NCBI GenBank assembly: GCA_021803025.1
Contig: JAJZQV010000018.1
Coordinates: forward strand, 1-37,678
Origin: Actinomycetes bacterium
Lineage (GTDB): Bacteria > Actinomycetota > Actinomycetes > Propionibacteriales > Propionibacteriaceae
Reading direction: 5' to 3'
DNA length: 37,678 nt
The notes under the pieces: model-generated
The model's input: only the letters and a program-made list of their open reading frames with translations
Told to the model about the DNA's origin: nothing
Database searches by the model: none
Shown here: positions 25,781 through 35,656 of the stretch, one piece after another
How positions within the stretch are numbered: position 1 is the stretch's first letter
Layout of the letters: every line of letters starts with the position of its first letter
Program-made: the position numbers and the translations under genes

Positions 25781-25793
25781 TAGAGTGCGGCGG
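25781..25793 (+). promoter_or_regulatory. Leaderless promoter -10 of tyrS
   Basis: TAGAGT (25781-25786) lies seven bases before GTG 25794. There is no Shine-Dalgarno sequence, no T-box leader and no room for one: the gap to the divergent gene is about 100 bases. Confidence 0.5.
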
Positions 25794-27056
25794 GTGACCG
25801 GTGTACTGGACGAGCTGAGATGGCGGGGACTCCTCGCCGAGTCGACGGATGAAGAGGCCCTGGCCGAACATCTTGCCTCCGGACCGGTGTCCTTCTACGT
25901 GGGCTTCGACCCGACCGCCCCGTCCCTGCACTTCGGGAACCTCGTGCAGCTGATCGTGGTACGACATCTGCAGGCGGCCGGGCACAAGCCCTACCTGCTC
26001 GTCGGTGGAGCCACCGGGCTCATCGGCGACCCGAAGCAGGCCGCAGAGCGCGTCCTCAACCCCACGGAGGTGGTCGCCGGCTGGGTGGACAGGATCCGTG
26101 ACCAGGTGTCGCGGTTCGTCTCGTTCGAGGGGGAGACCGGGGCCACGATCGTCAACAACTTCGACTGGACGGTCCAGATGACGCCCATCGACTTCCTCCG
26201 CGACATCGGCAAGCACTTCAGCGTGAACCGGATGCTGGCGCGAGACGTCGTCCGCAACCGGCTCGAGACGGGGATCTCGTACACGGAGTTCTCGTACGTG
26301 CTGCTGCAGTCGATGGACTTCCTCCACCTGTTCCGCACGTACGGCGTCACGCTGCAGACCGGCGGCTCGGACCAGTGGGGCAACCTCACGTCAGGAGTGG
26401 AGCTCATCCGGCGTGCCGCCGGCGGGCGGGCGCACGCGATGGCCACCCCTCTGCTCACCAAGGCCGACGGGACGAAGTTCGGCAAGACCGAGGGCGGCAG
26501 CGTGTGGCTGGACCCCCAGCTGACCAGCCCGTACGCGTTCCACCAGTTCTTCCTCGGCGCCGAGGACAGCATGGTCGGCACCTACCTGCGGGTCTTCTCA
26601 CACAGGTCTCGGGAGGAGGTCGAGGAGCTCGAGCGCGCCACCGCTGAGGCTCCGCACCTACGGGCAGCTCACCACGCGCTGGCGGACGACGTCACGGACC
26701 TCGTGCACGGTGAGGCCGAGAGACGGGCTGCGGTGGCCGCTGCTGAGGCATTGTTCGGACGAGGGTCCCTGCGGGACCTTCCCGCCGGGATACTCCACGC
26801 CGTGGCGAAGGAGCTCAACGCGTCCTCCGTGCCCACCGTCGAGGGGCTGGGCGTCGCCTCCGCCCTGCAGGCTGCAGGCGTCGTACCGAGCGTGTCCGCC
26901 GGCAGGCGAGCCATCGCGGAGGGAGGCGCGTACGTGAACAACACCAAGGTGACGGACGCGGACGCGTCCCTCAGCGCCGACGACCTGCTGCCCGGAGGCT
27001 ACGTCGTCGTGCGTCGTGGCAAGCGCACCGTAGGCGCTCTGAGAACGGGAGCATGA
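25794..27056 (+). CDS. tyrS: Tyrosyl-tRNA synthetase
   Basis: A protein of 420 residues, a class I synthetase for tRNA-Tyr. The HIGH-type motif is HFGN at 46-49, the KMSKS-type loop is KFGKT at 228-232, and YVGFDPTAPSLHFGNLVQL, GGATGLIGDP, GGSDQWGN are typical of the bacterial TyrS. A C-terminal S4 RNA-binding domain covers about 345-415 (VPSVSAGRRAIAEGGAYVNN). GTG 25794 (MTGVLDEL) is preferred over GTG 25785 because it matches homologues and has leaderless spacing from TAGAGT. In mycobacteria tyrS is followed by the TPR/HAD gene pair; here an rRNA operon lies between. Confidence 0.96.
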   Translation: MTGVLDELRWRGLLAESTDEEALAEHLASGPVSFYVGFDPTAPSLHFGNLVQLIVVRHLQAAGHKPYLLVGGATGLIGDPKQAAERVLNPTEVVAGWVDRIRDQVSRFVSFEGETGATIVNNFDWTVQMTPIDFLRDIGKHFSVNRMLARDVVRNRLETGISYTEFSYVLLQSMDFLHLFRTYGVTLQTGGSDQWGNLTSGVELIRRAAGGRAHAMATPLLTKADGTKFGKTEGGSVWLDPQLTSPYAFHQFFLGAEDSMVGTYLRVFSHRSREEVEELERATAEAPHLRAAHHALADDVTDLVHGEAERRAAVAAAEALFGRGSLRDLPAGILHAVAKELNASSVPTVEGLGVASALQAAGVVPSVSAGRRAIAEGGAYVNNTKVTDADASLSADDLLPGGYVVVRRGKRTVGALRTGA

Positions 27057-27601: not shown

Positions 27602-32575
<4,974 letters not shown>

Positions 32576-32622: not shown

Positions 32623-32741
32623 GTTACGGTGATCATGGCGAAGGGGAAACGCCCGGCTACATTCCGAACCCGGAAGCTAAGCCCTTCAGCGCCGATGGTA
32701 CTGCACGGGGGACTGTGTGGGAGAGTAGGACGTCGCCGGAC
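32623..32741 (+). rRNA. rrf: 5S ribosomal RNA
   Basis: About 119 bases starting GTTACGGTGATCATGGCG, with CATTCCGAACCCGGAAGC and GATGGTACTGC loops and the end GGAGAGTAGGACGTCGCCGG. It closes the rRNA operon, 75 bases behind the 23S gene and directly before the terminator. Confidence 0.95.
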
Positions 32742-32745
32742 ATAT

Positions 32746-32795
32746 AAACACCCCTTGGGTGTGCAGCAATGCACTCCCAAGGGGTGTTTGTTGTT
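32746..32795 (+). terminator. Intrinsic terminator of the rRNA operon
   Basis: AAACACCCCTTGGG (32746-32759) pairs perfectly with CCCAAGGGGTGTTT (32776-32789). The loop folds further into GTGCA/TGCAC closed by a GCAA tetraloop. GTTGTTGT follows. It is the only canonical intrinsic terminator clearly visible in the window. Confidence 0.93.
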
Positions 32796-32825
32796 GTCAG
32801 AGAAGGTCTACGGCAGGATGACGAC

Positions 32826-34742
32826 GTGAACAGTGCGAGCGGACGAGGCGACGACTCTCGAGAGGGCCGTAAGGAAGGCTCCAGGGATGGCTCGGGACGC
32901 CGCGGTTCGGCGCCCAGAACCGGCTCGGGCGCAGGGTCCGGCCGTTCTGTCGAAGGACGTGGAACCGGCTCGGCTTCGGGTCGTGGAACCGGCTCGGCCT
33001 CGGGACGGGCCGGGAGTGAGCGGAGCTCCAGGAGCTACGGTCAGAACGGTGTCGGCTCCGGAGGGGAGCGGAGGGCGACCGGCGGCTCGCGCGCTGACGA
33101 CCGCGAGCGCTCTCGCGGCGACGCCCGGGGGTCAGGCGAGAGGACTGAGAGGTACCGAGACTCCCGCTCGTACAGGCCGTCGGGCACGAGCGATGCTCGG
33201 GGCTCGGGCGAGAGGACCGAGAGGTACCGAGAGTCCGGCTCGTACACGCCGTCGGGCACGGGCGCAGAGCGTCGGTCCTCTGACAGACCGCCGGCCGCCG
33301 GTCGAGGTTCCTCGGCACGGGCCTACGGGACCAGGAGCTCCGACGACAGTCGTGCTGCGGGCCGGGGAGATGCGAGGGGTCGTTCGAGCGCTCCTTACGG
33401 GAACTCTGGGCGTCCTCGTGAGGACAAGCCTTACCGAGACTCCCGTGACGACCGTGCGTCCCGTGCGGAGGGGCGTCCCGGCCCGGATGAGCGCCGGCCG
33501 GCGGGCGCGAACGGCGGCGGAGACCGGCCGTACGGCTCTCGGCCGTCCTCCGGGACCGGACGTTCCGACTACGGGAGGCCACCACGGCAGGCCGAGGGCC
33601 GCGCGACCGGCTCCCGGTACGACAGCAGCGGCGGCCGTGACGCTTCCCGGCAGTCTTCGCCACGGCCCAGTGGGACGGGCTACCGTCCGCGGACCGACGG
33701 GCCGGATCGAGGCCCCCGTCGTCAGGGCGCGGGAGGTTCAGGCTCCGAGCGCCGCCCGTCTGACCGTGGCACGTCCAGCGGGGCGCGGCGTGACGAGCGG
33801 CCGCCCCGCGCGCAGAGACTCGTCCGTACAAGCGAGCAGTCAGGTCCTCCCATGCCTCGGCAGGACCGTCCTCCTCGTGAGACGCCGCCTCCCGGAGTTG
33901 GACCCCGCGCCAACGAGCCGGAGGCGCCGGAGATCGACCCCCGTGATGTCCCTCGCAACGTCCGGGCAGAGCTGAAGAGCCTGCCCAAGGAGCTGGCGGC
34001 AGTGGTCGGCGCGCACCTCGTCGCCGCGGGCGAGCTCATCGAGACTGATCCGGAGGCGGCCTATGCACACGCCGAAGCAGCCAAGCGACGTGCGGCCCGG
34101 CTCTCCATCGCTCGCGAGGCGCTGGCGGAGACCGCCTATGCGGCCGGCCACTTCGACGTGGCGCTGACGGAGTTCCGGGCGCTCCGCCGGATGACGGGCT
34201 CGCCGGACTACCTCGCCGTCCTTGCCGACTGCGAGCGCGCGCTGGGCCGGCCCGACGCGGCCCTACGGCTGGTTCGCGAAGGCGAGCAGACTGTCAAGGA
34301 CCCGTCGCTCCTTGTCGAGCTGCGGATCGTCCAGGCAGGCGCGCGGGCCGACGCGGGCCAGCGTGCCGAGGCGTTGCGCCTGCTCTCGGCCGAGATCGAG
34401 TCTCCGCGCGGAGTGGTCCCCAAGCCGGCTCAGGCCCGGCTGCGCTACGCATACGCAGCGCTGCTGCTCGAACAGGGCGACCAGGCCGCGGCGGAGGAGT
34501 GGTTCAGTGCTGCGGCGCGGATCGACCCCGAAGGCACGGATGCGCTCGACCGTCTCGACGAGCTGAACGGCGTCGTCCTCATCACGGACTTCGAGGACGA
34601 GGATGAGGTCGACGAGGAAGAGGCCGACGAGCCGACGACGGAGCCGGACCCGCTCGACCTGCCCTCCGAGGAGGACGACATCGCCGCCGTGCTGCGTGAG
34701 ATCGACCAGGACCAGGACCCGACGGAAGGGTCCGCCTCGTGA
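32826..34742 (+). CDS. RG-rich disordered protein with TPR-like C-terminal domain
   Basis: A protein of 638 residues. About 1-365 is low-complexity, rich in Gly, Arg, Ser, Pro and Asp, with many RG/RGS/SGR steps and no predicted fold. A 24-codon unit is duplicated in tandem (33120-33191 and 33192-33263; GERTERYR in each), and GRGTGSAS occurs twice. About 372-585 is all-helical with Ala-rich helix pairs of TPR type (ETDPEAAYAHAEAAKRRAARL, RALRRMTGSPDYLAVLADCERALGRPDAALRLV). The last ~45 residues are very acidic (DFEDEDEVDEEEADEP). The TPR part and the following HAD gene match the Rv1691-Rv1692 pair of mycobacteria. GTG 32826 is the proposed start, 31 bases behind the terminator. Function unknown; RNA or ribosome binding is a guess from composition. 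Confidence 0.82.
   Translation: MNSASGRGDDSREGRKEGSRDGSGRRGSAPRTGSGAGSGRSVEGRGTGSASGRGTGSASGRAGSERSSRSYGQNGVGSGGERRATGGSRADDRERSRGDARGSGERTERYRDSRSYRPSGTSDARGSGERTERYRESGSYTPSGTGAERRSSDRPPAAGRGSSARAYGTRSSDDSRAAGRGDARGRSSAPYGNSGRPREDKPYRDSRDDRASRAEGRPGPDERRPAGANGGGDRPYGSRPSSGTGRSDYGRPPRQAEGRATGSRYDSSGGRDASRQSSPRPSGTGYRPRTDGPDRGPRRQGAGGSGSERRPSDRGTSSGARRDERPPRAQRLVRTSEQSGPPMPRQDRPPRETPPPGVGPRANEPEAPEIDPRDVPRNVRAELKSLPKELAAVVGAHLVAAGELIETDPEAAYAHAEAAKRRAARLSIAREALAETAYAAGHFDVALTEFRALRRMTGSPDYLAVLADCERALGRPDAALRLVREGEQTVKDPSLLVELRIVQAGARADAGQRAEALRLLSAEIESPRGVVPKPAQARLRYAYAALLLEQGDQAAAEEWFSAAARIDPEGTDALDRLDELNGVVLITDFEDEDEVDEEEADEPTTEPDPLDLPSEEDDIAAVLREIDQDQDPTEGSAS
33120..33263 (+). repeat. 72-bp in-frame tandem repeat
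   Basis: Two 24-codon units inside the disordered region encode DARGSGERTERYR-D/E-S, then SY-R/T-PSGT. The bases differ mainly at third codon positions, so the protein repeat has been kept while DNA drifted. Confidence 0.8.
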
Positions 34743-35656
34743 GTGCTGTCATTGACGCCTACGACGCCGCCGTGTTCGACCTCGACGGCGTGATCTACCT
34801 CGGCGACGAGGTTGTGCCGGGGGTCGCCGAGGCGATAGGGGCCTTGCGCGACCGGGGTGTCCGCCTGGGGTTCGTCACGAACAACGCCGCACGGTCGCCT
34901 CAGGATGTCGCGGACCACCTCCAGCGCCTCGGGGTCGGCGCGACGGCTGACGACATCGTCACGAGCGCGCAGGCTGTCGCACGGCTCATGGCCGCACGGT
35001 TCCCGGCAGGCTCGCCCGTGCTCGTCGCCGGGACGGAGGCGTTGGTCGACGAGATCCGCGCTGTCGGGCTCGTACCTGTCACCTCCTCCGCCGACGGTCC
35101 CGTGGCGGTCGTCGTGGGGTACGCGCCCCAGCTCACGTGGGGCAGGATCAACGACGCCTGCTTCGCCGTCCAGGCGGGCGCGGCGTGGTACGGGTGCAAC
35201 CCCGACCGCACGCGGCCACAGGTCGAGGGCCAGGCGATCGGGCTCGGCACCATGCTCGACGCGATGCGCGAGACCATGCCTGGCCGTGAGCCGGTCCTGG
35301 CAGGCAAGCCGCTTCGTCCGCTGCTCGACGAGACCCTGCGGCGCCTCGGCGCGAGACACCCGATCTTCGTGGGGGACCGCCTCGACACGGACATCGAGGG
35401 CGCTCACGTGGTCGGCATCGACTCCCTGTTCGTCCTGTCCGGATCCCACGGGCCCGAAGAGCTCCTCGCCGCCCCGCCGGAGCACCGCCCCACGTACGTG
35501 GCCGCCGACATCTCCGGGCTGCTCCAGGAGCCAGCCGGCACGGGCGACGGTCCCGTCGACGACCTGTGGCGATCCGCGCTCGCAGCGTGGCGCGGCGAGG
35601 GGCGAAGGGGTCCGGATGGCCAGTCCCGGACGGTGGAGGCCGACCCGGCGCCCTAA
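34739..35656 (+). CDS. HAD-IIA family hydrolase (NagD-like phosphatase)
   Basis: A protein of 305 residues. The HAD nucleophile motif DLDGVIYLG has Asp14 and Asp16; motif II is in FVTNNAARS; the lysine of motif III is in LAGKPLRPLL; motif IV is FVGDRLDTDI. A C2-type cap lies between motifs II and III (about 75-185; VVGYAPQLTW, YGCNPDRTRP). This is the phosphoglycolate/nitrophenyl phosphatase-like group; the substrate is not known. A C-terminal tail (from about 265) is variable. GTG 34739 overlaps the TPR gene stop (GTGA). Confidence 0.92.
   Translation: MSAVIDAYDAAVFDLDGVIYLGDEVVPGVAEAIGALRDRGVRLGFVTNNAARSPQDVADHLQRLGVGATADDIVTSAQAVARLMAARFPAGSPVLVAGTEALVDEIRAVGLVPVTSSADGPVAVVVGYAPQLTWGRINDACFAVQAGAAWYGCNPDRTRPQVEGQAIGLGTMLDAMRETMPGREPVLAGKPLRPLLDETLRRLGARHPIFVGDRLDTDIEGAHVVGIDSLFVLSGSHGPEELLAAPPEHRPTYVAADISGLLQEPAGTGDGPVDDLWRSALAAWRGEGRRGPDGQSRTVEADPAP

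Follow-up and report, generated by a model that had tools for sequence, protein, structure and literature searches.

A TPR protein gene behind an rRNA operon in Actinomycetes and other classes of Actinomycetota

As read from the genome sequences, a gene for a TPR protein is linked to the 5S rRNA gene across the class Actinomycetes and beyond it. The window, a stretch of 37,678 nucleotides of contig JAJZQV010000018.1 (Table 1), contains the only 23S rRNA gene copy of its assembly and, behind the 5S gene, a reading frame whose GTG start (32826) is preceded by the Shine-Dalgarno-like sequence GGCAGGA. A tie of this gene to rRNA synthesis had already been suggested in the initial annotation, and the suggestion is now much stronger since the 5S linkage is conserved in the class and in more distant relatives. 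As an explanation we tentatively favor a core actinobacterial TPR scaffold, the gene of which is attached to one rRNA operon, and which would be made by transcriptional read-through and may have a role in RNA or ribosome biogenesis.

Table 1. Features of the window and the basis for their assignment
Feature	Position	Strand	Basis and remarks
tyrosyl-tRNA synthetase gene (tyrS), conserved upstream neighbor of the rrn operon	25785..27056	+	ORF list; identity assigned from reading the protein
16S rRNA	27602..29120	+	Rfam RF00177, 1585 bits
23S rRNA	29446..32549	+	Rfam RF02541, 2782 bits
5S rRNA	32625..32741	+	Rfam RF00001, 92 bits
rRNA terminator hairpin with T-rich tail	32744..32791	+	34 nt before start codon; fold, terminator scan
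rRNA-linked TPR protein gene	32826..34742	+	GTG start, 638 aa; ORF list, homologues in 177/198 class genomes
disordered R/G/S-rich, lysine-poor arm, residues 1-353	32826..33884	+	pLDDT below 50; composition
two 72-nt tandem units inside arm (DARGSGERTERYR..SYxPSGT)	33118..33264	+	Tandem Repeats Finder, score 231
TPR solenoid, residues 377-580	33954..34565	+	PF13432; AlphaFold2 pLDDT 94.4; PDB TPR folds, best Z 17.3 to 2pl2_A
acidic tail, residues 586-638, net charge -23; predicted short helix 615-628	34581..34739	+	charge count, structure prediction
HAD-IIA phosphatase gene (Rv1692-type)	34739..35656	+	PF13344/PF13242; TIGR01460 above cut-off

Linkage of the TPR gene to the rRNA operon

For the linkage, 98 loci of the class were compared: the window, two named loci and 95 others that were chosen regardless of rRNA, the majority of them on large contigs or in single-contig genomes. 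In 69 of the 98 the TPR gene has a 5S gene on its own strand no more than 300 nt upstream, a count that is a lower bound because locus L062 was counted as unlinked through a start picked inside the arm; in 19 the 5S gene is more distant, so that 88 show one at all, and in the other 10, some of which are cut by contig ends, none is visible. The spacing is mostly 60-160 nt in linked class loci, and at least one linked locus occurs under 25 of the 26 family labels in the class. Similarly, a 5S gene within 300 nt and on the same strand was observed outside the class in 20 of 40 loci, representing 8 of 14 families; as relatives share history, the loci in these counts are not independent. A common strand and a short, conserved spacing to the 5S gene were found, as would be expected of an rRNA operon member. 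Exactly one of the 2-6 5S genes or rrn operons carries the TPR gene in six multi-operon genomes. In genomes G003 and G021 the gene is attached to each of two rrn copies, within a repeat of 6.7 kb and 99.1-99.2% identity that starts in the gap before the 16S gene and leaves out only the last 26 nt and 2 nt, respectively, of the TPR gene. As this nearly identical repeat includes the gene, the TPR gene travels with the rrn unit in these genomes; the repeat points to recent duplication or to gene conversion, and either way the gene behaves there as part of the unit. Some lineages (L040, L056, L096) have lost the linkage and kept the protein, indicating that the rRNA coupling is not indispensable, and in L037, L067 and L099 other genes intervene between the 5S and the TPR gene. 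Loci without the linkage either have such intervening genes or show no rRNA nearby in the sequence at hand. A literature search, with most subscription journals outside its coverage, returned no published description of the linkage, including in papers that name Rv1691 or MSMEG_3754.

The gene order tyrS-(rrn)-TPR-HAD phosphatase is present in the window, where the HAD-IIA phosphatase gene overlaps the stop codon of the TPR gene by 4 nt (GTGA), and in relatives. A tyrS match was obtained upstream of the 16S gene in 23 of 36 loci (tblastn; loci retrieved for more than 700 nt before the 16S gene), and a HAD gene lies close downstream of the TPR gene in 59 of 98. As these neighbors are also often conserved, it is possible, if somewhat doubtful, that the whole order is simply inherited with little selection on the junction between the rrn genes and the TPR gene, which would then be driven by its own promoter, in many cases one that overlaps the terminator, and have no part in ribosome function. 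In line with this, the TPR gene of L182 (outgroup family f49) follows matches to argH and tyrS with no rRNA in between, suggesting that the rrn genes were lost there or that they were inserted between tyrS and the TPR gene elsewhere. However, mere inheritance would sit poorly with the 5S link in other classes, which persists with no tyrS match in the ~0.5-0.9 kb retrieved before the 16S gene, and with an rrn repeat unit that includes the TPR gene, as in G003 and G021.

Several loci also show peculiarities of the rRNA genes themselves. In L176 (787-2741) the 16S matches fall into two pieces ~430 nt apart, which is intron-like, and the TPR core match begins ~250 nt behind the 16S gene with no 23S or 5S match in between. 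Matches to the 3' region of the 23S gene occur in separated pieces in L181, L184, L186 and L205, all from outside the class, which suggests insertions or introns in the 23S rRNA.

Termination and expression of the TPR gene

The stretch 32742-32835 of the window, which contains the terminator hairpin, folds with -46.9 kcal/mol (z -6.2). The TPR gene was correctly placed directly behind the rRNA terminator in the initial annotation, at a distance that has to be revised from 31 to 34 nt. The lack of a clear promoter of its own, likewise noted there, was borne out for the window: a promoter scan found no sigma-70-type promoter before the TPR gene, and between the 5S gene and the GTG there is no TANNNT box, the commonest form of the -10 element in P. 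acnes (PMC3848588). Comparison of the linked loci revealed a GC-rich hairpin between the 5S and the TPR gene in 66 of 69, and a hairpin with at least three T in its tail in 61 of 69. The distance from hairpin to start codon has a median of 60 nt, and a promoter is therefore possible in many species; at most 35 nt separate the two in 10 of the 66 hairpin-bearing loci, where no promoter with leader fits behind the hairpin. Boxes resembling a -10 element are not significantly enriched behind the hairpin (18 of 58, 13.6 expected), and TANNNT boxes at plausible sites were observed in some lineages, e.g. L102 and L109.

That a strong terminator has been retained almost everywhere argues against free co-transcription. 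Co-transcription of a gene placed behind an rRNA operon does occur: in E. faecium, vanHAX is located behind such an operon and co-transcribed, and the terminator is broken there (PMC11702846). The terminator kept at the junction and the boxes in L102 and L109 would suit a gene that merely inherited its position and uses its own promoter, but gaps of 18-25 nt leave no promoter space behind the hairpin. Judged from these spacings and box counts, we favor leaky termination in part of the family, while promoters that overlap the hairpin are also possible. In the read-through model, a minor share of rRNA transcription, which is very strong, would pass the terminator hairpin and provide the mRNA for the TPR protein, and the supply of the protein would thereby follow rRNA synthesis.

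Arm, TPR core and acidic tail

The division into a disordered basic half, a helical TPR middle and an acidic tail, as originally proposed, agrees with the disorder prediction, the TPR_16 match and confident core model (pLDDT 94.4), and the net charge of -23 in the tail. The proposal that this architecture is unusual for bacteria was not supported, as by comparison of homologous sequences it is ordinary within Actinomycetota and not an oddity of a single genome. In the window protein R, G and S make up 21%, 19% and 16% of the arm (residues 1-353), against 1% for K and 2% for large hydrophobics, and the net charge over residues 1-365 is +31; AlphaFold2 (pLDDT below 50) predicts the arm to be disordered, and in charge-hydropathy terms it lies far on the disordered side. 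Such an arm is near-universal in the class. In 95 class proteins it has a median length of 260 aa (range 41-779, some lengths being approximate because start codons were picked by a Shine-Dalgarno rule), with 21% R, 19% G, 0.8% K, 5% hydrophobics and a net charge of +7 per 100 residues. Arm length and repeats vary freely among relatives, and many members outside the class have just 16-50 basic residues in its place. It had been considered beforehand that the extension might be random in length and composition among relatives; this applies to length, whereas composition is conserved.

The arm had also been described as RG-rich, but RG motifs as such are not supported: in the window protein RG/GR dipeptides do not exceed the number given by composition (28 observed, 29.4 expected), and across relatives the z scores spread around or below zero with no consistent excess. 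Thus, the arm resembles RGG/RG condensate-forming RNA-binding proteins in being long, disordered, rich in R and G and net positive, but differs from them in lacking this dipeptide excess and in being joined to a TPR solenoid instead of an RNA-binding fold. Rho and RNase E/G of the same genome have R-rich, lysine-poor disordered segments resembling the arm; in contrast, these are enzymes, and their segments are shorter and richer in E. In three loci of family f29 with ~50% GC, the arm has an R:K ratio of 68:6, compared with 53:30 for the core (Fisher p 2e-5), and as K is depleted relative to the core even at this GC content, the avoidance of lysine is not merely a matter of base composition. 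We consider it highly improbable that the arm is an artefact, i.e. that a GC-rich frame just happens to be open ahead of a genuine, short TPR protein. A lower GC3 in the arm than in the core (median 0.72 vs 0.87 in a codon-position test, the arm being too repeat-rich to align) and the failure of the arms of distant relatives to align with each other would fit such an artefact. However, from one locus to the next a start codon in frame with the arm recurs, together with a Shine-Dalgarno-like site, directly behind the terminator, the composition of the arm including ~5% hydrophobics is conserved, and the short arms of the mycobacterial type retain an R/P/G character.

TPR is the only domain that Pfam recognizes in the window protein (TPR_16, E=2e-8, above the gathering score), and the core is modeled as a solenoid of 12 helices. 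Searches with the window protein against NCBIfam, PHROGs and PDB sequences returned weak generic TPR matches or nothing, and fold comparison of the core with the PDB yielded the common TPR arrangement, with no function indicated. Accordingly, generic bacterial TPR scaffolds such as TTC0263, MamA and YrrB share the solenoid fold (Z ~15-17) but only 10-22% sequence identity, and the shared fold shows no function. Within the family, 48 representatives share 37-85% identity with the window protein over the core, and residues R53, R58, E59, Y66, D96, R99, G133, R135 and D137 of the core are invariant among them; the charged ones suggest a conserved binding surface. The acidic tail is missing from several families, and the charge polarity is therefore lineage-specific. 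Near the C-terminus of the window protein (34668-34709, residues 615-628) there is an acidic amphipathic helix motif, E-[IV]-A-x-[ILV]-L-x-E, which is also present in the tails of L048, L052, L122, L124, L125 and L127. It recurs in otherwise unalignable acidic tails of two families (f1, f39) and is possibly a partner-binding motif; a strict-pattern search matched 2 of 47 tails, and more were recognized by eye.

Relatives and possible role of the protein

A search with the TPR core identified homologues in 194 of the 197 genomes that represent the order. Within the class, 177 of 198 genomes and 83 of 91 genera have one, among them genomes of ~1.3 Mb, and more distant homologues are present in other classes of Actinomycetota. 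The closest named record, L002 from a Propionibacteriales MAG, has 76% identity in the best segment, and family f7, which is mycobacterium-like in size and gene order, is matched by the core at E ~1e-40. Two homologues appear damaged: that at G173:C1:1998068-1998799 has two TGA and one TAG in the matched frame, either as a decayed copy or through sequencing error, and that at G002:C1:1813456-1814131 gave two matches that overlap, suggestive of a frameshift.

The mycobacterial rrnB operon lies behind tyrS (PMC10218544), and Rv1691 sits with Rv1692 in the lprJ-recN operon (PMC3072309). By its homologous core and its gene order, the window protein would belong to the Rv1691-type family of actinobacterial TPR proteins, and from gene order rather than alignment we infer that it is orthologous to Rv1691. 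In class loci L095, L097 and L098, taken to be of the Rv1691/MSMEG_3754 type, a homologous core occurs in the order tyrS-rRNA operon-TPR-HAD seen in the window; unlike in the window protein, the arm of these short proteins measures only ~42-100 aa, and the acidic tail is missing. M. tuberculosis is not known to have rrnB, so that the rRNA link would be absent from this species.

In M. smegmatis, MSMEG_3754 was picked for validation from a high-confidence list of proteins co-purifying with RNA polymerase; the FLAG-tagged protein recovered no DNA on re-testing, and the authors proposed that it may be RNA-associated (PMC7092591). Its recovery in that pull-down of the polymerase beta subunit, together with the basic disordered arm, might indicate a polymerase- or nucleoid-associated factor acting in transcription generally rather than on rRNA. 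We regard this as quite improbable, given that no DNA came down with the protein and that a formaldehyde pull-down cannot tell direct from indirect contacts. MSMEG_3754 is also listed in a ClpC1 interactome (PMC10433963), and lysine deserts are reported to be overrepresented among actinobacteria, correlating with pupylation (PMC10169902). Together with the lysine depletion of the arm at ~50% GC, this might be taken to indicate an adaptor in protein quality control that works with Clp proteases and whose arm was selected to escape pupylation and not to bind RNA; yet such a role appears improbable, as interactome lists contain many bystanders and both the rRNA linkage and the high arginine and glycine content would be left unexplained.

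The co-purification with polymerase also speaks for the scaffold explanation that we prefer, and the failure to recover DNA speaks against it. Under this explanation the arginine-rich arm would contact RNA in the form of precursor rRNA, nascent rRNA or ribosomal particles, and protein partners would be held by the TPR groove, joined in some lineages by the acidic tail. The protein might thus assist the transcription or processing of rRNA or the assembly of ribosomes, either as a chaperone or as an adaptor. More speculatively, and on present evidence unlikely, one rRNA operon across Actinomycetota would have an ancient fourth member, a protein gene expressed via a leaky terminator, the product of which, a dedicated scaffold produced in amounts proportional to rRNA, organizes rRNA transcription or ribosome assembly in a nucleolus-like manner.

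A protein that is uncharacterized but near-universal in the class to which Mycobacterium and Streptomyces belong is thus physically tied to an rRNA operon, and the linkage extends into other classes of the phylum. The seemingly exotic disordered architecture is the rule in the Rv1691-type family, and the rRNA linkage would give a functional direction to proteins that have had none. The question of whether bacteria meter a ribosome-related protein via leaky rRNA termination hereby becomes concrete and cheaply testable.
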